Shown: positions 2,656 to 40,619 of the stretch, piece after piece
Layout: every line of letters starts with the position of its first letter
How positions within the stretch are numbered: the stretch's first letter is position 1
DNA from: Elusimicrobia bacterium RIFOXYA2_FULL_47_53
Lineage (GTDB): Bacteria; Elusimicrobiota; Endomicrobiia; Endomicrobiales; XYA2-FULL-47-53
Direction of reading: 5' to 3'
Length of the DNA stretch: 64,000 nucleotides
Assembly: GCA_001800315.1 (NCBI GenBank)
Contig: MGVE01000011.1
Coordinates: 62,001 to 126,000 of the forward strand
Notes under the pieces: generated by a model
Database searches by the model: none
The model's input: the letters and a program-made list of their open reading frames with translations, nothing else
What the model was told of the DNA's origin: nothing
Program-made: the position numbers and the translations under genes

Positions 2656-4928
2656 AAAAAAACCGTCAGAAACAACAGCCCTCAAAGCCTGAGGCCGCCC
2701 CCTCGGCAGTTCTCTTTCATCCGCTGCTGCTGGTTCCTTTTCTCGTCTGGGGCTATTTTGTCTTGGCGAATTATTTAAAGACTTATCCGGCGGGCTTTAA
2801 TTTCGGCGGCATGTTTTTTTTCGGCGCCGAAAATGTTTCACTGATGAATATTTTTAACCTGCTCTCCTATGTGCCCCATTTTTTGTTCGCGGCGTTCCTG
2901 TTTGTTTCGGCCTTCGGGCTGGGCAGGTTCGCGCTCAATGTGTTTAAAATAAGCTCGCTGGAAGAAGGGGAATATATTTATTCAACGGCGCTGGGCCTTT
3001 GCCTGATAATCTATTCCACCCTCTTAATCGGAAGCCTCGGCCTGCTGTACAAACCCCTGGTTCTTATCCTGCCGGTATTCGGTGCGGTTTACGCTTTTGC
3101 CAAAGCCTCTGTTAATAAGCCCGTTTTGTCGTTTTCGGTCTCAAAGATCCCGTTTCTTATGAAAATCCTGCTTCTGATAGTGGCAGCAGAACTTGTTTTT
3201 ACCCTTATCGGCTCACTCGCCAACGAAACTTTTTATGATTCATTAAAATATCATATCGGCGTTCCGCATTACTGGATACTAAACCACAAGATTTCGGCTA
3301 TCCCAAATTTTGAGTATTCCTATTACCCGGTAAATATCCATCTGTTATATATGCTGGGGCTCATGTTCGGCAACGATATCACCGCCAAGCTCATACATTA
3401 CGCTTTCGGCATTTTAAGCGCCGCCGCTATTTACCAGTGGAGCAGAAAAAGGTTTTCCAATGAAACCGGCGTTATGGCGGTTCTCATTTTCTTCTCGGTA
3501 CCGTTTGTTTACATGGTGATGTGGAAAACCGCCATTGAGCTCGGCCTCGCGTTTTTTGAGACCATGGCTGTTTTAAGTTTTATTAATTTTCTTACCGAGG
3601 CTCCCGAGAAAAAAACCAGGTGGGCTGTGCTCTCGGCTCTTTTCTGCGGCACGGCTATCGGGGGGAAATATCTGAGTGTTTACTCGCTTATAGCCATTGT
3701 CGCGGCCGCCGCGGTGTATTTTATCGCCAAAAAACAGGTTTCAAAAAGAAATTTGTACTACGCGGGGCTGATAGTCTTTGTCTCCCTTTTTCTTGTCGCG
3801 CCCTATCTTGTCAGGAACCAGATACTGACTGGCAAGTTCGCTTATCCCTATAATATCGGATTTAAGAGCGAGATTACGGCCTCGCTGAGAGATGTTCAGG
3901 TGGATTTCAACGACCCTCCAAAACCCGACAGGACTATTAAGAACTTCCTGACTCTGCCGTGGTACCTTACAATGGGAGCAAAAACCCAGGAGCCGCTTTC
4001 CGGGGCTTTGCTGCTGCTTTTCGTTCCCTTTATTTTTCTTTTCAGGAACTCCGACGAGAAAATAAAGTCCCTGCTTATTTACTGCGGAGTATATTATTTT
4101 CTGTGGTTTTATGTAAGAACCTATTTTCGCTACATCGTGCCGCTTATGCCGGCATTGTCCATAGCGATAGCGTATTTTCTGACGGTTCCTAAACTCAGCA
4201 AGTATTTCAAGTTCATTGCCCTCTCGGCGCTTACGGTTTTGTTTGTCTCAAACCTGAACCTGCTGGTGATGACCGAGGCGGCTACCATGGATCCTTTACG
4301 GGTGGTGCTGGGCCTTGAAAGCAAAAAAGATTATCTTTCCACCAGCCGCCCCAGCTATCCGACGCCGTATTATCAATCGCTGGAATGGGCAAACCTTAAT
4401 CTGCCGGATGGCTCCAGGATAATGTTCCTCGGCGAGTGCCGCGGTTATTACAGCGCGAATAAGTTTATTACCCATACCTTAAGCGATTACAACCCGCTGG
4501 TAGTCATGGCCTCCAGAGCCAATAACGGCGACGAGCTCTACAAACTGCTGAAAGCCGAGGGTGTCACGCACCTGCTGTTTAATGTTCCTGAAGCCCGCCG
4601 GATAGCATCCTATGATATGTTCCACTTTGAGCCGAAGGATTTAAAAGTGGTGCTTCAGTTCTGGGATAAATATGTGGCTCAGTTGTACGCCGAACCCGGC
4701 GATATGGCGGCGCCCCAGCAGGGGATTCATTCCATGAAAAAACAGCAGGCCCAGTGGTGGTCGCAGTATTCCGCTATGCCTCAGAACAGCGTCTATATTT
4801 ACAGGATAATGGACAGCGAGGAGGCTTCAAAACCGCACCGCCCGCCTTTGAATTTTTTCCTGGACAAGGAGATTTATTCGGCGGACCGCTGGAAACGCTT
4901 TGAGGGACTTATAAGAAACGGCGGATAA
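2652..4928 (+). CDS. Polytopic membrane protein, glycosyltransferase family 39/ArnT-like
   Basis: A 758-residue protein with a short basic N-terminus and many hydrophobic segments between about residues 25 and 545, followed by a soluble C-terminal domain of about 200 residues. An early luminal loop carries NETFYDSLKYHIGVPHYW, which resembles the acidic first-loop region of GT-C enzymes (PMT/ArnT/GT39) that move sugars from polyprenyl-phosphate donors. No single diagnostic motif settles the family, so the call rests on architecture and loop position. It overlaps the preceding radical SAM gene by 4 bases. Acceptor and donor are unknown. An O-antigen-type or other multi-TM transferase is the main alternative. 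Confidence 0.6.
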   Translation: MKKNRQKQQPSKPEAAPSAVLFHPLLLVPFLVWGYFVLANYLKTYPAGFNFGGMFFFGAENVSLMNIFNLLSYVPHFLFAAFLFVSAFGLGRFALNVFKISSLEEGEYIYSTALGLCLIIYSTLLIGSLGLLYKPLVLILPVFGAVYAFAKASVNKPVLSFSVSKIPFLMKILLLIVAAELVFTLIGSLANETFYDSLKYHIGVPHYWILNHKISAIPNFEYSYYPVNIHLLYMLGLMFGNDITAKLIHYAFGILSAAAIYQWSRKRFSNETGVMAVLIFFSVPFVYMVMWKTAIELGLAFFETMAVLSFINFLTEAPEKKTRWAVLSALFCGTAIGGKYLSVYSLIAIVAAAAVYFIAKKQVSKRNLYYAGLIVFVSLFLVAPYLVRNQILTGKFAYPYNIGFKSEITASLRDVQVDFNDPPKPDRTIKNFLTLPWYLTMGAKTQEPLSGALLLLFVPFIFLFRNSDEKIKSLLIYCGVYYFLWFYVRTYFRYIVPLMPALSIAIAYFLTVPKLSKYFKFIALSALTVLFVSNLNLLVMTEAATMDPLRVVLGLESKKDYLSTSRPSYPTPYYQSLEWANLNLPDGSRIMFLGECRGYYSANKFITHTLSDYNPLVVMASRANNGDELYKLLKAEGVTHLLFNVPEARRIASYDMFHFEPKDLKVVLQFWDKYVAQLYAEPGDMAAPQQGIHSMKKQQAQWWSQYSAMPQNSVYIYRIMDSEEASKPHRPPLNFFLDKEIYSADRWKRFEGLIRNGG

Positions 4929-33077: not shown

Positions 33078-34149
33078 GCTCTTAACTAATTAACTACTGA
33101 CAAATAAAGAGACAATTGATAAAAGGGATGTATGCCGAGACAAGGAAGAATAAACATAGAAGGTGGGATATATCATGTGATGCAGCGTGGCATTGAGCGT
33201 CGCGAGCTGTTTAAGAGTGACGCTGATTGCCAGGAGTTTGTCCGCAGGTTTTCGGAAGGATTAAAGGATACTGGGCACAAATGTTACGGTTGGGCGCTTA
33301 TGCCCAACCATTTTCATTTATTGATACGAGCTGGGGAGAAACCGTTAAGCGATCTAATGAGGAAGCTACTAACCGGGTATGCGGTATATTTCAACAGGAA
33401 GTACAAGAGGAGCGGGTATTTATACCAGAACCGATATAAATCTATATTGTGCCAGGAAGATAGTTATTTAGTGGAGCTGGTGCGCTACATACATTTAAAC
33501 CCGTTGAGGGCAAAGATAGTGAAGGATATGGGCGAATTAAACAAATATAAATGGAGCGGCCATTCGGTAATAGTTGGTGTGAATAAGGCGCCATGGCAGA
33601 CTATCGGCGAAATACTTAAGTATTTTAGCAGTAATAGAACTGAGGCAATCAGGAAATACATTAATTTTGTGGAAGAAGGTGTGAATAAAGGAAAAAGGGA
33701 AGAATTGACGGGTGGCGGGTTAAGGCGGAGTGCGGGTGGAAAATGGAGCGGGGTGCTTGCGCTAAAAAAAGCGAAAGAATACCGGCAGGCAGACGAGCGC
33801 GTGTTGGGCGATTCCGGGTTTGTAGAAGAAGTGTTGAAAAGCGCACGGGAAAAGGTACAGAGAAAAGAGATGCTTATAAAAGATGGTTGGGATTTGCGGA
33901 AAGTTGATGAGAAAGTATGCGAAAAGTATAATTTTAAGAAGGGCGGTTTGAGTAATAGGAGCAGGTTAAATGCAGTATCAGAGGCAAGGAAAGTATTTAT
34001 GTATTTGGCGAATAAAGTATTAGGTATAAGCGGCAAGGAGATAGCAAAATACTTAAGTATAACAGCGGTAGCGGTTTCCAAGGGCATAAGGCAAGGTGAA
34101 ATAATATGTGGCGGGGAAAGCCATAAGTTAATTAGTTAAGAGCGTCCCC
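33072..34149 (+). mobile_element. Single-gene element with Y1/REP-type tyrosine transposase
   Basis: A transposase gene is bounded by a perfect 24-bp inverted repeat: 33072-33095 (begins GGGGACGCTC) and 34126-34149 (ends GAGCGTCCCC). The right copy contains the last four transposase codons and its stop. IS200/IS605-type elements typically have subterminal hairpins and no terminal inverted repeats, so this layout resembles REP/RAYT-type units more. No target-site duplication is evident. It interrupts or abuts the 5' side of a ribonuclease toxin gene. Confidence 0.7.
33132..34139 (+). CDS. REP-associated (Y1-type) tyrosine transposase
   Basis: A 335-residue protein. The N-terminal Y1 transposase domain (about 1-150) has GGIYHVMQRGIERRELF, the HUH motif in ALMPNHFHLLI and the catalytic Tyr region SGYLYQNRYKS, followed by RYIHLNPLRAKIV. 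A C-terminal helix-turn-helix (GKEIAKYLSITAVAVSKGIR) gives DNA recognition. This architecture fits RAYT-type transposases, which cut and join single-stranded DNA through a 5'-phosphotyrosine. The coding sequence is AT-richer than its neighbours. The frame is intact and may be active. It starts after AAAAGGG. Confidence 0.9.
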   Translation: MPRQGRINIEGGIYHVMQRGIERRELFKSDADCQEFVRRFSEGLKDTGHKCYGWALMPNHFHLLIRAGEKPLSDLMRKLLTGYAVYFNRKYKRSGYLYQNRYKSILCQEDSYLVELVRYIHLNPLRAKIVKDMGELNKYKWSGHSVIVGVNKAPWQTIGEILKYFSSNRTEAIRKYINFVEEGVNKGKREELTGGGLRRSAGGKWSGVLALKKAKEYRQADERVLGDSGFVEEVLKSAREKVQRKEMLIKDGWDLRKVDEKVCEKYNFKKGGLSNRSRLNAVSEARKVFMYLANKVLGISGKEIAKYLSITAVAVSKGIRQGEIICGGESHKLIS

Positions 34150-34341: not shown

Positions 34342-34355
34342 GGGAGGAATTGACG

Positions 34356-34793
34356 ATGAAGATTATTGATACTTTTGTATTTTCTGATGACCACAAATCT
34401 AATGAAGGAGATTTAATTATTAAGATTCCTTGCAACATTAAAACTGAGAATGCACTATTTGATGTGTTATTAAAAGGTTTGAGTTTTCCATATTTTGGCT
34501 GGAATTGGAATGCACTTGATGATTGTCTGCATGATTTTGAATGGTTACGTGCAAAGAAAATAATTATTCAACATGATGATTTACCGCAAATGCCGGTTAA
34601 TGAACTGAAAATATATTTAGAAGTGTTATCAAGTGCAGTTTATGATTGGATGAATGATTCCGCACATGATTTTGTGGTTGTATTTCCTGTCCAAGAAAAG
34701 GCACAAATTGTCAGTATTGTTGGAGAGGAAACTGTTATGTCAAAATTTACGGATAAACCCATTGGTGAGGAGTTAAGAAACCCAAACAAATGA
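34356..34793 (+). CDS. Barstar-family ribonuclease inhibitor (immunity protein)
   Basis: A 145-residue protein of the barstar family, which plugs the active site of barnase-type RNases. The core is FDVLLKGLSFPYFGWNWNALDDCLHDF (family hallmark FGWNWDALDDCL-like), here at about residues 37-63, with acidic residues that would contact the RNase. The start is ATG 34356, 8 bases after GGGGAGG; a TTG two codons earlier is less likely. The gene is clearly AT-richer than the core genes around it, pointing to horizontal acquisition. It lies directly behind the truncated toxin and looks intact. Confidence 0.85.
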   Translation: MKIIDTFVFSDDHKSNEGDLIIKIPCNIKTENALFDVLLKGLSFPYFGWNWNALDDCLHDFEWLRAKKIIIQHDDLPQMPVNELKIYLEVLSSAVYDWMNDSAHDFVVVFPVQEKAQIVSIVGEETVMSKFTDKPIGEELRNPNK

Positions 34794-35609: not shown

Positions 35610-35638
35610 TTGAGCAAAAAGCATTAATATGGTAAAAT
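35610..35638 (+). promoter_or_regulatory. Promoter of nadC (leaderless start)
   Basis: TTGAGC at 35610-35615, a 17-base spacer and TAAAAT at 35633-35638. The nadC ATG begins 6 bases after the -10 box, so the transcript would start at or next to the start codon. Confidence 0.7.
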
Positions 35639-35644
35639 TCAGCC

Positions 35645-36490
35645 ATGAATAAATATTCCAGGATAATTTTAGACGCTCTGAAGGAAGACGCTGCCCGTAA
35701 CGACATAACTACAATAGCGGCCATACCTTCCTCCGCCACCGTTACAGCCGAGCTTGTAGCTAAGGAAAACGGAATTCTCTGCGGAATGGATGTTTTAAAG
35801 GCCGTGTTTTGCGAGATAGACAGGCGGTGCGCCGTAAAAACTTTTGTAAAGGACGGCGGCAGTCTGCGCGCGGGGCAGATAATCGCGAAAATAAGCGGTT
35901 CGGCCAGGGCAATACTCTCCGCGGAACGCACAGCCCTTAATTTTATTCAGCATCTTTCCGGCATTTCCACTCTTACCGGTATTTTTGTAGAAAGGGTTAA
36001 AGGAACCAAAGCCAGGATCCTTGATACGCGCAAAACCACCCCGGGCTTAAGGGAACTTGAGAAATACGCCGTTAAATGCGGCGGTGGATATAATCACAGG
36101 CACAATCTCGCCCAGATGGCGATGATAAAAGACAACCATCTCAGAATTATAAAAGACCTGTCAAAAGTTGTAGCAAGTATCCGCAAAAAAAATAAAAAAA
36201 TAGCCATTGAGGTTGAATGTCAGAGCCTTTCGGATGTCCCGAAAGCCCTTGATGCCGGCGCGGACATTATTATGTTTGACAACATGTCGCGAAAGATGAT
36301 AAGCAAGGCTATCGGCATTATCAATAAACGCGGGGGGCGCAAGCCTCTGACGGAGATTTCAGGCGGCGTCAATCTTTCAAATGTAAAAGATTACGCCACG
36401 CTGGGTGTGGATAGAATATCCGTGGGAGCGCTTACCCATTCGGCGCCTTCTCTTGATATAAGCCTTGAGATCGTATCAATGGAAGGTTGA
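35645..36490 (+). CDS. nadC: Quinolinate phosphoribosyltransferase (decarboxylating) NadC
   Basis: A 281-residue enzyme of de novo NAD synthesis, which converts quinolinate and PRPP to nicotinate mononucleotide. Key blocks are ERTALNFIQHLSGIST, DTRKTTPGLRELEKYAV, the GGGYNHRHNL loop and IMFDNMS. The promoter -10 box ends 6 bases before the ATG and no ribosome site exists. birA starts directly after its stop (TGAATG). It is the first core gene after the accessory island. Confidence 0.95.
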   Translation: MNKYSRIILDALKEDAARNDITTIAAIPSSATVTAELVAKENGILCGMDVLKAVFCEIDRRCAVKTFVKDGGSLRAGQIIAKISGSARAILSAERTALNFIQHLSGISTLTGIFVERVKGTKARILDTRKTTPGLRELEKYAVKCGGGYNHRHNLAQMAMIKDNHLRIIKDLSKVVASIRKKNKKIAIEVECQSLSDVPKALDAGADIIMFDNMSRKMISKAIGIINKRGGRKPLTEISGGVNLSNVKDYATLGVDRISVGALTHSAPSLDISLEIVSMEG

Positions 36491-37447
36491 ATGGCCGGGC
36501 TCCTTGAGTTGCTGTCAAATAACAAATTTGTATCGGGGCAGGAGATCGCCTCGGAGCTAAAAATATCCCGCGCCGCGGTGCATAAACAGATTGAACTTCT
36601 GCGAAAAAAAGGCTACGAAATTCAGGGGAGGCGGAAACAGGGTTATTCTCTTGTGCTGAGGCCGGACCTTATAGCGCCCGCGGAAGTGTCGCGCCGCTTA
36701 GATAAAAAAAACCTTTTGGGAAGGGAAATAAAGTATTTCTCGGAACTTGGCTCAACTCAGTCAAGGGCAAAAGAAGAAGCCGAAAACGGAACTCCCGAAG
36801 GTTTGCTCATTATCGCTGAATCGCAGAGCTCGGGTTACGGCAGGCTCTCAAGGAAATGGGCATCGCCTCCGCTGGGCTTGTGGTTTTCCCTTGTTTTAAG
36901 ACCAAAGCTGATACCTTCCAATGTTCCGCAGCTCACGCTGGTCTTTTCACTGGCAATATGCAGGGCGCTTAAGCGCTTTCGCAGAATAAACCCTGAGATT
37001 AAGTGGCCCAACGATATTTTTCTCGGTAATAAAAAACTTGGCGGAGTGATAACGGAGATGTCGGCCGAGTCTGACGGAGTCAGGTGGCTGGTCCTGGGCG
37101 CGGGAATAAATGTAAATAATGAAATTCCGCGAAGCCTGCTGGATACGGCGGTATCAATTTTAGCGGCGACTGGCGGCGCGGTGGACAGGGCCGCATTGCT
37201 TGCCGGGATAATAAACGATTTTGACGCGATGTACAGAACATATACCGTTTCCGGTTTCGGCGGTTTTGCCGCTGAGTATAATGAAAATTCTCTGCTGAAA
37301 GGAAAACGAGTAACGGTTGATATGCTCGGGGAAGTAATCTCCGGGACAGTTCTTGGAATAGATGACAGCGGTTTTCTGCTGGTAAAGCGGGATAACGGCG
37401 AAACGCGCAAGATTATCGCCGGAGATGTCACTCTGAAAGGCTGGTAA
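36491..37447 (+). CDS. birA: Biotin-protein ligase / biotin operon repressor BirA
   Basis: A 318-residue bifunctional protein. The N-terminal winged helix (about 1-60, SGQEIASELKISRAAVHKQI) would bind a biotin operator. The catalytic domain has GYGRLSRKWASP for biotinyl-AMP binding and KWPNDIFLGNKKLGGV with the catalytic Lys, and a small SH3-like domain ends the protein. Its likely substrate here is the AccB homologue at 59690. It starts immediately after nadC. Confidence 0.94.
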   Translation: MAGLLELLSNNKFVSGQEIASELKISRAAVHKQIELLRKKGYEIQGRRKQGYSLVLRPDLIAPAEVSRRLDKKNLLGREIKYFSELGSTQSRAKEEAENGTPEGLLIIAESQSSGYGRLSRKWASPPLGLWFSLVLRPKLIPSNVPQLTLVFSLAICRALKRFRRINPEIKWPNDIFLGNKKLGGVITEMSAESDGVRWLVLGAGINVNNEIPRSLLDTAVSILAATGGAVDRAALLAGIINDFDAMYRTYTVSGFGGFAAEYNENSLLKGKRVTVDMLGEVISGTVLGIDDSGFLLVKRDNGETRKIIAGDVTLKGW

Positions 37448-37452
37448 TTAGA

Positions 37453-38076
37453 ATGAACGATCAGGAACTCTTAAAAGTATTAAAGACCCGCAGGAGCGTA
37501 AGGCGCTTCCTTCCCGGCTCTATACCGGAAAGCGATATCAATAAAATCATCCTGGCGGCTTCATGGGCCCCTTCGGGAACAAATCACCAGAACTGGCACT
37601 TTATCGTGATTAATTCAAAAGCTATAATTGAAGCTCTTTCCGACACCGTCAAGAAAACGGTCAGCGATTACGCCGCTGAAATAAAACTTGATTCGGCTCG
37701 TCACGGTTTTCTTAATTATACGGGTTATTTTACATTTTTCAGACAGGCCCCTCATGTAATCGCCGTGGTAAAAAAACCTTACGATTCAATTACCCAGAAA
37801 CTCATGCGCAGGTACGACCTGCCGGATAATTTCCTGACCAGCACCGATGTGCAGGGTCCGGCCGCGGCCATACAGAACCTTATGCTTATGGCTCATGCCA
37901 TGGGCTACGGAACCTGCTGGATGACTGGCCCTCTGATAGCAAGGGAAAAAATGGAGTCAATTCTGGAAATCAAGAGCCCCGACCAGCTTATGGCGCTTAT
38001 TCCGCTGGGAAAACCAGAGTTTCTGCCGCCTGCTCCGAGAAGAAAAGATGTTGAGGGAATAGTGGAGTACCGCTGA
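37453..38076 (+). CDS. Nitroreductase-family flavoprotein
   Basis: A 207-residue FMN-dependent oxidoreductase. The N-terminal TRRSVRRF and WAPSGTNHQNWHF blocks bind FMN phosphate. The C-terminal half has AMGYGTCWMTGP and ends with an IPLGKPE-type segment. Substrates in this family range from nitroaromatics to quinones and cannot be predicted. It overlaps the LUD gene by one base, in a run that ends with the redox sensor Rex. Confidence 0.88.
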   Translation: MNDQELLKVLKTRRSVRRFLPGSIPESDINKIILAASWAPSGTNHQNWHFIVINSKAIIEALSDTVKKTVSDYAAEIKLDSARHGFLNYTGYFTFFRQAPHVIAVVKKPYDSITQKLMRRYDLPDNFLTSTDVQGPAAAIQNLMLMAHAMGYGTCWMTGPLIAREKMESILEIKSPDQLMALIPLGKPEFLPPAPRRKDVEGIVEYR

Positions 38077-38726
38077 TGAATCCGAATTCTGACGAGAATT
38101 TAAACTGGCACGGCGAAAAAATGATTGAGGCGGCCGCAGAGGCTCTCAAAAAGAATAATTTTACCGTTCATCTCGCGGCCGGTTCCGCTGAGGCCGTTGA
38201 AAAACTGCTTTCATTGATTGAGATAAAAGACAGAGTGGCCTGCGGCGGTTCGCGCACAATCAAACAGATAGGGATACTGGAAGCGCTTGAAAAAAGAGGC
38301 CAGATAACCGCCGGTTCCCGGCCTTTTAAGACTCCCGCCGAATCTTTGGAGTCAAGGAGAAACTCTCTGCTCGCTGATGTTTTCATGGCAAGCCCTAACG
38401 CAGTCACTCTTGACGGCAAGCTGATGTTTCTGGAGTCCATAGGAAACAGAACCGGAGGCATGGCTTTCGGCCCCGGCAGAGTTATAGCGGTGTTGGGGTT
38501 TAATAAGATAGTCAGTTCCGTTGAGAGCGGATGGGAGAGGATTCGCTTTCATTCGGCCCCTGTAAACGCTAAAAGGCTCAATCTGTCTACTCCCTGCGCT
38601 AAAACCGGCATCTGCGCCGACTGCTCCAGCGAACAGAGGATATGCAATATTGAGATGGTTCTAAGAAAAAAGCCCAAACATACCAAATACGATATAATTC
38701 TTATCAACGAGGATCTCGGCTACTAA
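38076..38726 (+). CDS. LUD-domain protein (LutC/YkgG-like)
   Basis: A 216-residue protein with the LUD fold: VACGGSRTIKQIGI, then ADVFMASPNAVTLDGKLM and NRTGGMAFGP. The C-terminal segment contains four or five cysteines (TPCAKTGICADCSSEQRIC) that could bind a metal or Fe-S cluster. LutC-like proteins take part in L-lactate oxidation with LutA and LutB, but neither partner is present here, so the function is open. It lies between the nitroreductase and rex without gaps. Confidence 0.8.
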   Translation: MNPNSDENLNWHGEKMIEAAAEALKKNNFTVHLAAGSAEAVEKLLSLIEIKDRVACGGSRTIKQIGILEALEKRGQITAGSRPFKTPAESLESRRNSLLADVFMASPNAVTLDGKLMFLESIGNRTGGMAFGPGRVIAVLGFNKIVSSVESGWERIRFHSAPVNAKRLNLSTPCAKTGICADCSSEQRICNIEMVLRKKPKHTKYDIILINEDLGY

Positions 38727-39356
38727 ATGAACATCAAAAAAGCAGATAAAATACCATCTATAGTCGTTCCGAGGCTCTCCAGGTATTACAGGATACTCTT
38801 TGAGCTTGACTCCAGCCCGCTTATTTCCTCAAAGGTATTATCCGAGCACACCGGTTTTACCGCCGCCCAGATAAGACGCGACCTTGCTTATTTCGGGCAG
38901 TTCGGTTCTCCCGGCAGAGGCTATAATGTGGAGGAGCTTAAAAAAACCATTAAAAATATTCTGGGCCTTGACAGAGCCTGGAATGTCTGCGTCATCGGCA
39001 CCGGAAACCTCGGTATGGCGTTGCTCGGGTATAACGGTTTCAAGGATCAGGGGTTTGAAGTCGTGGCGGCCTTTGATTCCGATCCTGAGAAAATCGGGAA
39101 GACCGTAAACGGCATTAAGATTTTGTCAATCAGCGAGATGGCCAAAGTCGTGCGCGAAAAAAACATTCAGATAGGGCTTTTAACCGTGCCCGGCAGGGTC
39201 GCCCAGCAGGCCGCCGAGAATGCCGTAAACTCCGGTATAAAGTCCATTATGAACTTCGCACCGGTTCACCTTAAACTTCCGGAAAATGTCAAGGTGCGTC
39301 ATATTGACATGACGGTGGAGATAGAAAGGCTTTCGTTTATGATTTCAAGAGAGTAA
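38727..39356 (+). CDS. rex: Redox-sensing transcriptional repressor Rex
   Basis: A 209-residue NADH/NAD+ sensor. The N-terminal winged helix includes the recognition segment AAQIRRDLAYFGQFGSPGRG (about 46-64), and the Rossmann domain has GTGNLG at 91-96. Rex leaves its operator when NADH rises, releasing fermentation and respiration genes. It starts right after the LUD stop. No clear Rex operator was identified upstream of the local genes. Confidence 0.95.
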   Translation: MNIKKADKIPSIVVPRLSRYYRILFELDSSPLISSKVLSEHTGFTAAQIRRDLAYFGQFGSPGRGYNVEELKKTIKNILGLDRAWNVCVIGTGNLGMALLGYNGFKDQGFEVVAAFDSDPEKIGKTVNGIKILSISEMAKVVREKNIQIGLLTVPGRVAQQAAENAVNSGIKSIMNFAPVHLKLPENVKVRHIDMTVEIERLSFMISRE

Positions 39357-39393
39357 TTCAGGGAATTAATAAAAAGAGGAGGTGAATTACGCA

Positions 39394-39573
39394 ATGGCAG
39401 AGATTCTTGTGGTTGTAAGCAAAGTAAAGAAAATGGTGAAAGAGGCAGGATTCCGCACCGGCGCCGACTATATAGCTTCCCTTTCCGGTAAAATTGAGGA
39501 AACGGTTAAGGCTTCCATAGAAAAGGCTAAGCTTGCCGGAGACAAAAAAACATTGGGTTCAGAAGACATTTAA
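39394..39573 (+). CDS. Bacterial histone-fold protein
   Basis: A 59-residue basic protein predicted as a single histone fold: helix 1 VSKVKKMVKEAG, loop 1 FRTG, long helix 2 ADYIASLSGKIEETVKASIE and loop 2/short helix 3 DKKTLGSEDI. The KKTL-x-x-ED end is the histone L2-alpha3 signature. Small proteins of this type exist in Bdellovibrio and Leptospira, where they coat or bend DNA as dimers. The ATG at 39394 follows GGAGG (39378-39382); an in-frame GTG at 39382 overlaps that site and is unlikely. A strong hairpin follows the gene. Confidence 0.75.
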   Translation: MAEILVVVSKVKKMVKEAGFRTGADYIASLSGKIEETVKASIEKAKLAGDKKTLGSEDI

Positions 39574-39589
39574 TGAATTCCGCGCGGCT

Positions 39590-39617
39590 CCGGGCAAAGG
39601 CTTTGGCCTTTGCCCGG
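39590..39617 (+). terminator. Strong hairpin after the histone gene
   Basis: CCGGGCAAAGGC (39590-39601) pairs perfectly with GCCTTTGCCCGG (39606-39617) around a TTTG loop. No T-tract follows (GGGGCAGC), so it may mark a transcript 3' end or a Rho-independent terminator of atypical form. Confidence 0.55.
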
Positions 39618-39656
39618 GGGGCAGCGGTCACCTTCCGGTAACTTTCCGATACACCC

Positions 39657-39685
39657 TTGAAACAAAAAATATTTTTTGGTATAAT
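39657..39685 (+). promoter_or_regulatory. Promoter of rpsB-tsf-pyrH-frr
   Basis: TTGAAA at 39657-39662, a 17-base spacer rich in A/T, and TATAAT at 39680-39685. The predicted start is near 39692. Confidence 0.88.
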
Positions 39686-39691
39686 CTGGGT

Positions 39692-39824
39692 TCGTAAAAA
39701 ATACGCACACCCCGGGATTTCTTTCAGGGTCCCTGTCCGCTGGCGCGGATTGGGCTGAATGAGAGCTGAACGAGGTGGAGGGCCGTCTCTTCGGAGCGGC
39801 AAAAAAACTTACAGGAGGCAGTAC
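39692..39824 (+). promoter_or_regulatory. Structured 5' leader of rpsB
   Basis: About 130 untranslated bases. Visible structure: CAGGG-T-CCCTG (39725-39735), CCGC-TGGC-GCGG (39737-39748) and a GC stem closed by a C(UUCG)G tetraloop (39782-39800), followed by a run of seven A and the ribosome site AGGAGG. S2 regulates its own mRNA in other bacteria through leader elements, so this is a candidate autoregulatory leader. Confidence 0.55.
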
Positions 39825-40619
39825 ATGTCAAACATTTCAATGAAGGCTCTGCTTGAAGCAGGGGTGCATTTCGGCCATCAGACCAGACGGTGGAATCCGA
39901 AAATGGCGAAGTATATTTTCGGGAACAGAAACAAGATTCACATAGTAGACCTGCAGAAAACCGTTAAAGAGCTTAAAAAAGCCTACAAGTTCGTCAGGGA
40001 CTCCGTAGCCGAAAACAAAAGTATTCTTTTTGTCGGAACCAAAAAACAAGCCCAGACACCCGTCAAGGAAGAATCCATACGGGCAGGGGCTTTTTTTATA
40101 AGCCAGAGATGGCTTGGCGGAACACTTACCAACTTTGAAACCATAAAGAGATCCATAGCCAGGCTCAAAGAGCTTGATAAAATGAAATCTGACGGAGTTA
40201 TGGGAATATTGTCAAAAAAAGAAGCCTCAAGGCTTGAAAAAGAAAGAATCAAAATGGATAAATCCCTTGAAGGCATTAAAGATATGAAGAAGCTTCCGGA
40301 CCTCATGTTTGTCGTTGATCCCACAGAGGAAGCGACCGCGGTTGCCGAGGCCAGAAAACTTCACATCCCGGTTGTGGCTATCTGCGACACTAACTGCGAT
40401 CCCGATTCCGTTGACTATCCGATCCCGGGCAACGACGACGCCATAAGAGCGGTAAAACTTTTCTGTTCAATCATGGCCGACGCCGTGCTTGAGGGAAAAG
40501 GGCTTCTCGCCAAGCAGGACGAAAAGACGGAAACAGAATCAAAAGAAATCCCCGGCGCGACCGTGGGCGATAGAATAAATGAAGCAGTCGTAATTTCAGA
40601 ACAAAGCGAGGTTAAATAA
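39825..40619 (+). CDS. rpsB: 30S ribosomal protein S2
   Basis: A 264-residue protein starting [20 protein letters not shown], the family N-terminus. The body has [20 protein letters not shown], and [14 protein letters not shown] with [10 protein letters not shown] near 170-200; the C-terminal 30 residues are an acidic tail. AGGAGG at 39813-39818 decides for ATG 39825. A longer in-frame start at 39759 would translate the leader and is rejected. It is followed by tsf after one base. Confidence 0.97.

Follow-up and report, generated by a model that had tools for sequence, protein, structure and literature searches.

A small HBb-like histone of Elusimicrobiota, encoded after rex at a few loci and near respiratory genes at many

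Sequence comparison and structure prediction confirm that positions 39394-39573 of the 64,000-nucleotide stretch of DNA analysed here (the window) hold a genuine gene for a predicted bacterial histone related closely to HBb (Bd0055) of Bdellovibrio bacteriovorus. The product is very probably a small nucleoid protein of the HBb kind, that is, a DNA-bending dimer that would work beside HU and whose gene is ancient and vertically inherited.

Results

The gene lies on the forward strand, as do the features from nadC to rpsB described below, and was recognized from its open reading frame, homology, AlphaFold modelling and Foldseek comparison. It encodes MAEILVVVSKVKKMVKEAGFRTGADYIASLSGKIEETVKASIEKAKLAGDKKTLGSEDI, 59 amino acids followed by a stop codon, with a low net charge of about +1.5 at pH 7. 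A phmmer search of the PDB ranked HBb first (8fvx, E=3e-7), followed by HLp of Leptospira (0.011) and HTkC of Thermococcus (0.13). HBb was also the best match of a profile made from the orthologs (2.3e-12), with HTkC (4e-9), HLp (9.6e-9, or about 1e-8) and archaeal HMfA (0.18) behind it. Pairwise alignment with HBb over the full length gave 29/60 identical positions (48%), and its score exceeded that of shuffles of the same composition by 16 SD.

An AlphaFold monomer model, built on a 57-sequence alignment with divergent paralogs added, reached a pLDDT of 82.7 and placed helices at residues 8-17 and 24-47 and a single turn at 56-58. Foldseek matched it best to HBb (TM 0.89-0.90, rmsd about 1 Å), then to HLp (0.86-0.88), HTkC (0.83-0.85) and HMfA (0.59); below HBb, HLp and HTkC come archaeal and eukaryotic histones. 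Owing to the very small size of the protein, these histone matches had E-values of no better than 1e-3 to 3e-2. Both the modelled helices and the top matches correspond to the helix-loop-long helix-loop-helix pattern of a histone fold. With its turn at 56-58 and a chain that ends at residue 59, the protein has the form of an alpha3-truncated histone, in which the third helix has 3-4 residues and alpha2 is shortened. An earlier AlphaFold run on a narrow alignment (21 similar rows) was uninformative, with a pLDDT of 63 and no Foldseek match. Scanned against Pfam and NCBIfam, the protein matched no model at E values as high as 10; therefore, the family is invisible to both libraries.

A Shine-Dalgarno sequence, AGGAGGTGA, can be read at 39377-39385, 8 nt 5′ of the histone ATG, and a purine-rich Shine-Dalgarno sequence precedes nearly all of the orthologs as well. 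Downstream, a perfect inverted repeat, CCGGGCAAAGGC-TTTG-GCCTTTGCCCGG, occupies 39590-39617 and forms a 14-bp stem with flanks. Folding of 39574-39640 gave -40.6 kcal/mol (z -3.8), which indicates a very stable hairpin; it lacks a T-run and the terminator search made no call there. The hairpin may form the 3′ end of the histone transcript or take part in its processing. This repeat, located between the histone gene and rpsB, occurs once in the window. An Rfam search of 38700-40000 found no match. The source genome is 2.41 Mb in 20 contigs and 100% complete.

Upstream of the histone gene is a run of genes that begins with nadC, encoding quinolinate phosphoribosyltransferase (35645-36490; PF01729, PF02749), and ends with the histone. 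Between them lie genes for a birA-like biotin ligase/repressor (36491-37447; PF03099, HTH_11, BPL_C), a nitroreductase-family protein (37453-38076; PF00881), a LUD-domain protein (38076-38726; PF02589, E=4e-40) and the redox-sensing repressor Rex (38727-39356; PF06971 and PF02629), and the stop codon of rex is 37 nt before the histone ATG. A weak sigma70-like site (9/12 matches) precedes nadC at 35610-35638. On the other side, rpsB (39828-40619; 30S ribosomal protein S2, PF00318, 1e-100), followed by tsf, pyrH and frr, starts 254 nt from the histone gene. A sigma70-like promoter, TTGAAA-17-TATAAT with TG (39657-39685; 11/12 matches), probably serves rpsB. Given this distance and this site, the histone gene looks like the last of the nadC-to-histone run and not a member of the rpsB operon. 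The leader of about 140 nt between the strong promoter-like site and rpsB (39686-39827) has no Rfam match and could be a ribosomal-protein autoregulatory leader. Elsewhere in the window, a transposase with a Y1_Tnp domain and a DnaA C-terminal HTH domain is encoded at 33132-34139 and a Barstar-family protein at 34350-34793.

These results bear out much of the initial annotation, made from the letters of the window. It had described a 59-residue single histone fold, on which HBb identity, profile search, AlphaFold and Foldseek agree; a terminal KKTL-x-x-ED, found as KKTLGSED at residues 51-58; a strong ribosome site; a stable downstream hairpin; and a position directly after rex. Of the two genes between which it placed the histone, rpsB is 254 nt away and has a promoter-like site of its own.

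Residue conservation was counted over 64 Elusimicrobiota orthologs. The DNA contacts of HBb have been enumerated, with R57 the second strongest in simulation (PMC11317129). Among these contacts the window histone keeps S9, K10, K12, K16, K52 and T53, which are conserved in 64/64, 63/64, 64/64, 64/64, 63/64 and 64/64 orthologs, respectively; the alpha1 lysines typical of HBb-type histones (K10, K12 and K16) are thus present in 63-64 of the 64. Four contacts are changed: T8 to V8, N22 to R21, S24 to G23 and R57 to E57. The clamp pair R51-D58 of HBb reads K51-D58. R21 is invariant, E57 is found in 63/64 and K51 in 62/64, and with the latter two so conserved the course of the DNA may not be exactly that on HBb. 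The RKT motif with its clamp aspartate reads KKT-x4-D, the change from R to K being present in the window histone and 62/64 orthologs while T and D are invariant. The phylum thus has a signature of its own on an HBb-like frame: an arginine in L1 and, ahead of the last aspartate, an acidic residue, each of which aligns with HMfA. The phylum-specific residues (R21, E57, K51) go beyond the papers that we found.

The same residues bear on the type of histone. The tetramer residues of HLp are R49, N53 and R55 (PMC12701072), and they correspond to K44, A48 and K51 here, so the R/N/R residues of face-to-face (FtF) histones are absent. Position 48 is mostly E, D or A in the relatives, with N in 1/64, and R occurs at position 51 in 2/64. 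At 59 residues the protein has no tail, and its neighbours are rex and rpsB, which sets it apart from the IHF histones; having no N-terminal domain, it also has no ZZ zinc finger and is not a ZZ-histone. By sequence it is nearest to HBb, the best match in both searches. We place the window histone with the predicted bacterial dimers, although it has KKT where the published motif is RKT. Second, divergent Elusimicrobiota histones at eight loci (L121, L122, L123, L124, L125, L126, L127 and L135) carry the face-to-face R..N.R pattern that the window type does not; hence, two types can be distinguished within the phylum.

Orthologs were found in 97/341 genomes of the phylum, spread over 23 families. 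Outside families f6, f15 and f16 the histone is near universal (95/115 genomes); it is absent from f6 (0/77) and f15 (0/90), together 0/167, and present in 2/59 genomes of f16. Judging from genome size and number of species, f6 and f15 may be the gut-associated Elusimicrobiaceae and Endomicrobiaceae. Because f6 belongs to the order of the window genome and families f1, f2, f3 and f5 of that order have the histone, loss in f6 is favoured. HU-family genes are present in 315/341 genomes of the phylum, with two in the genome of the window. HU is kept in f6, f15 and f16, even though almost none of their genomes has the histone. In-frame TAG codons in the HU genes of three genomes (G257, G264 and G287) proved to be merely the normal stop codon at the end of the alignment.

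The named records with an ortholog are metagenome-assembled genomes of Elusimicrobia or Elusimicrobiota. The closest orthologs belong to the same order (85, 83, 83, 75 and 71% identity), and identity declines with taxonomic distance, being 85-71% in the order and as low as 54% in the phylum at large. Against relatives, dN is 0.09-0.21, dS is saturated and third codon positions are near random. Identity that tracks taxonomy, together with low dN and near-random third positions, points to a gene that is old, vertically inherited and under strong purifying selection. On this comparative evidence the histone gene is native to the phylum.

In the phylum as a whole the gene has a recurrent respiratory context. 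nuoA is located within 2 kb of it in 64 of the 70 genomes that have both the histone and a NuoA that could be assigned, representing 12 families, and downstream of it in 47/62 named loci with enough sequence; these counts are of genomes of one phylum and are not independent. The typical order, supported by Pfam, is histone, methyltransferase and nuoABCD (nuoA, nuoB, nuoC, nuoD). The methyltransferase slot usually holds one gene, either of the ubiE/menG type (PF01209) or of the MidA type (PF02636). From the histone stop to the methyltransferase start there are often 9-25 nt, a spacing that suggests joint transcription with the histone gene first. We rejected the adjacent enzyme as a histone methyltransferase since two different families fill the slot; a part in quinone or complex I work presumably accounts better for both types.

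In families f7 and f9, which belong to the class of the window genome and have no canonical NuoA, an Rnf operon (RnfC, RnfD, two Rnf-Nqr subunits and an RnfB-like ferredoxin) lies 3′ of the histone gene and is followed by rpsB (L137, L138 and L141). RnfC is downstream of the histone in L142 too. NusG_II and Hpre_diP_synt_I genes, which often accompany Rnf, lie 3′ of the histone in at least one genome each of f8, f10 and f11. The window locus looks like an f7/f9 locus with the Rnf block missing, and the nuo genes of its genome are on another contig, behind a polyprenyl synthase gene (L103). Upstream, rex adjoins the histone gene in 6/61 named loci, window included; LUD is directly 5′ in L051, L066, L069 and L131, and nadC or birA is upstream in other loci. 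Rex-operator-like palindromes upstream of the histone gene in 65 loci and the window were as frequent as in shuffled sequence, with no excess. Families f7-f11 and others have the histone without canonical NuoA, and most of f16 has NuoA without the histone; f7-f11 and f16 thus rule out a strict rule that histone presence follows complex I.

Discussion

Bench work on bacterial histones has so far dealt mainly with two lineages, Bdellovibrio and Leptospira. The initial annotation took bacterial histones themselves to be known mainly from these two, which needs correction, since Elusimicrobiota had already been named among the phyla that have them (Hocher 2023, PMC10627809; Schwab 2024, PMC11390915). 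The window histone therefore joins an already known set of bacterial dimers in a phylum known to carry them. Its presumed native status is upheld by the orthologs in the phylum. The gene is of the HBb (bacterial dimer) type and not of the Leptospira (face-to-face) type. Of the checks that the annotation had proposed, structure prediction of the monomer gave the Bdellovibrio histone as best Foldseek match, and synteny in related genomes showed the histone gene before nuo genes at most of the named loci and next to rex at few. The informative part of the context is Rex together with Nuo and Rnf, and not rpsB as such. What the set now offers is about 100 phylum-deep orthologs that coexist with HU and have a fixed signature, distinct from HBb at residues known to contact DNA. 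With the histone absent from all sampled genomes of two families, the phylum lends itself to a natural comparison of what bacteria gain from having one.

By analogy with HBb, two histone chains would pair head to tail, and the dimer would use alpha1 and its L1-L2 loops to grip the backbone at minor grooves, bending DNA without sequence preference. Its spacing suggests that in the window the gene is probably transcribed last in the nadC-birA-nitroreductase-LUD-rex run. As the genome has two HU-family genes, the histone is expected to work beside HU and not instead of it.

Three other readings can be weighed against this one. The silence of Pfam and NCBIfam even at E=10, and the poor model from the shallow alignment with no PDB matches, are what one would expect if the ORF were spurious or encoded a short helical protein that is unrelated to histones and merely resembles them. 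Such a reading is scarcely credible, however, when phmmer, profile search, HBb identity and the AlphaFold model contradict it, histones top the Foldseek list for the predicted fold and the orthologs are under strong purifying selection. A face-to-face tetramer wrapping about 60 bp, as for Leptospira HLp or archaeal HTkC, would suit the predicted monomer, which fits those two nearly as well as HBb, and the L1 arginine R21 is common to HTkC. Nevertheless, identity is nearer HBb (46-48% vs 26-28%), the HLp tetramer residues are replaced and rare at positions 48 and 51 among the orthologs, and the R..N.R pattern is found in the separate second histones instead; we consider this tetramer very unlikely.

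The genomic context raises the further idea that the histone serves the Nuo/Rnf operons locally, as their dedicated regulator or as a partner translated together with them, and is not a general chromatin protein. NuoA proximity in 12 families, the short gap to the next start, RnfC downstream in four loci and Rex, LUD or nadC upstream in many would all agree with it. However, the linkage is not obligate, no Rex-operator-like palindrome is enriched upstream, and the relative HBb is nucleoid-wide and very abundant (PMC10627809). This role is therefore unlikely, and we favour the DNA-bending nucleoid dimer.

The repeated position before Nuo or Rnf is still unexpected for the gene of a nucleoid protein, usually described as standing alone. 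The open-access literature that we found describes no linkage of histones to nuo or rnf, and the Nuo/Rnf/Rex context goes beyond those papers. Placement before an NADH-using respiratory complex may point to a connection of chromatin with redox metabolism but does not prove one; frozen gene order is a possible explanation as well. We can speculate that the histone is co-transcribed with NADH-linked Nuo (or Rnf), often downstream of the gene for the NADH sensor Rex, and that nucleoid compaction would thereby follow redox or energy state. This proposal is tentative and on present evidence rather doubtful, although, given the gene placement, a link of chromatin to redox state can be tested directly.

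Known systems to compare include the archaeal nucleosomal histones HMfA and HMfB. R21, K51, T53, E57 and D58 align with their L1 arginine and RKT..ED (profile E=0.18), but the third helix is much shorter in the window histone and the sequence and fold scores are weak (TM 0.59). IHF histones have also been reported in Elusimicrobiota (Schwab 2024, PMC11390915). They share with the Elusimicrobiota histone the phylum and a histone fold encoded in a multi-gene operon, whereas their dimerising C-terminal tail and adjoining IHF-like gene are both missing in the window. HLp of Leptospira perolatii and HTkC of Thermococcus kodakarensis (face-to-face; 9qt0, 9f2c) have the alpha3-truncated fold and the N-terminal SKVK in common with the window histone, which is only 26-28% identical to them and is without their tetramer residues. 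A 62-aa single-fold HBb-like histone is also encoded on a 44-kb viral contig (L136, IMGVR_UViG_3300033143_002018, 2980-3168); it is 41% identical over 56 residues and, unlike published phage histones, has no C-terminal tetramerisation domain.

Elusimicrobiota are listed as carriers of the bacterial dimer category of alpha3 histones, and this category is almost certainly the same protein family as the window histone (Schwab 2024, PMC11390915). Alpha3 histone genes are single-gene operons according to that study, whereas the Elusimicrobiota histone leads or ends multi-gene runs in many families, and RKT there is KKT here. HBb itself (PDB 8fvx, 8cmp, 9ezz, 9f0e) is a close relative and the best match in the PDB. 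The two proteins are alike in length and in the alpha3-truncated single fold; both have S9, K10, K12, K16, K52, T53 and D58, and both are without the FtF tetramer residues. The L1 of the window histone has one residue fewer and its L2 one more, and the protein differs from HBb at the RD-clamp R51 (K51) and at R57 (E57), T8 (V8), S24 (G23) and N22, where its R21 is aligned with the L1 arginine of HMfA.
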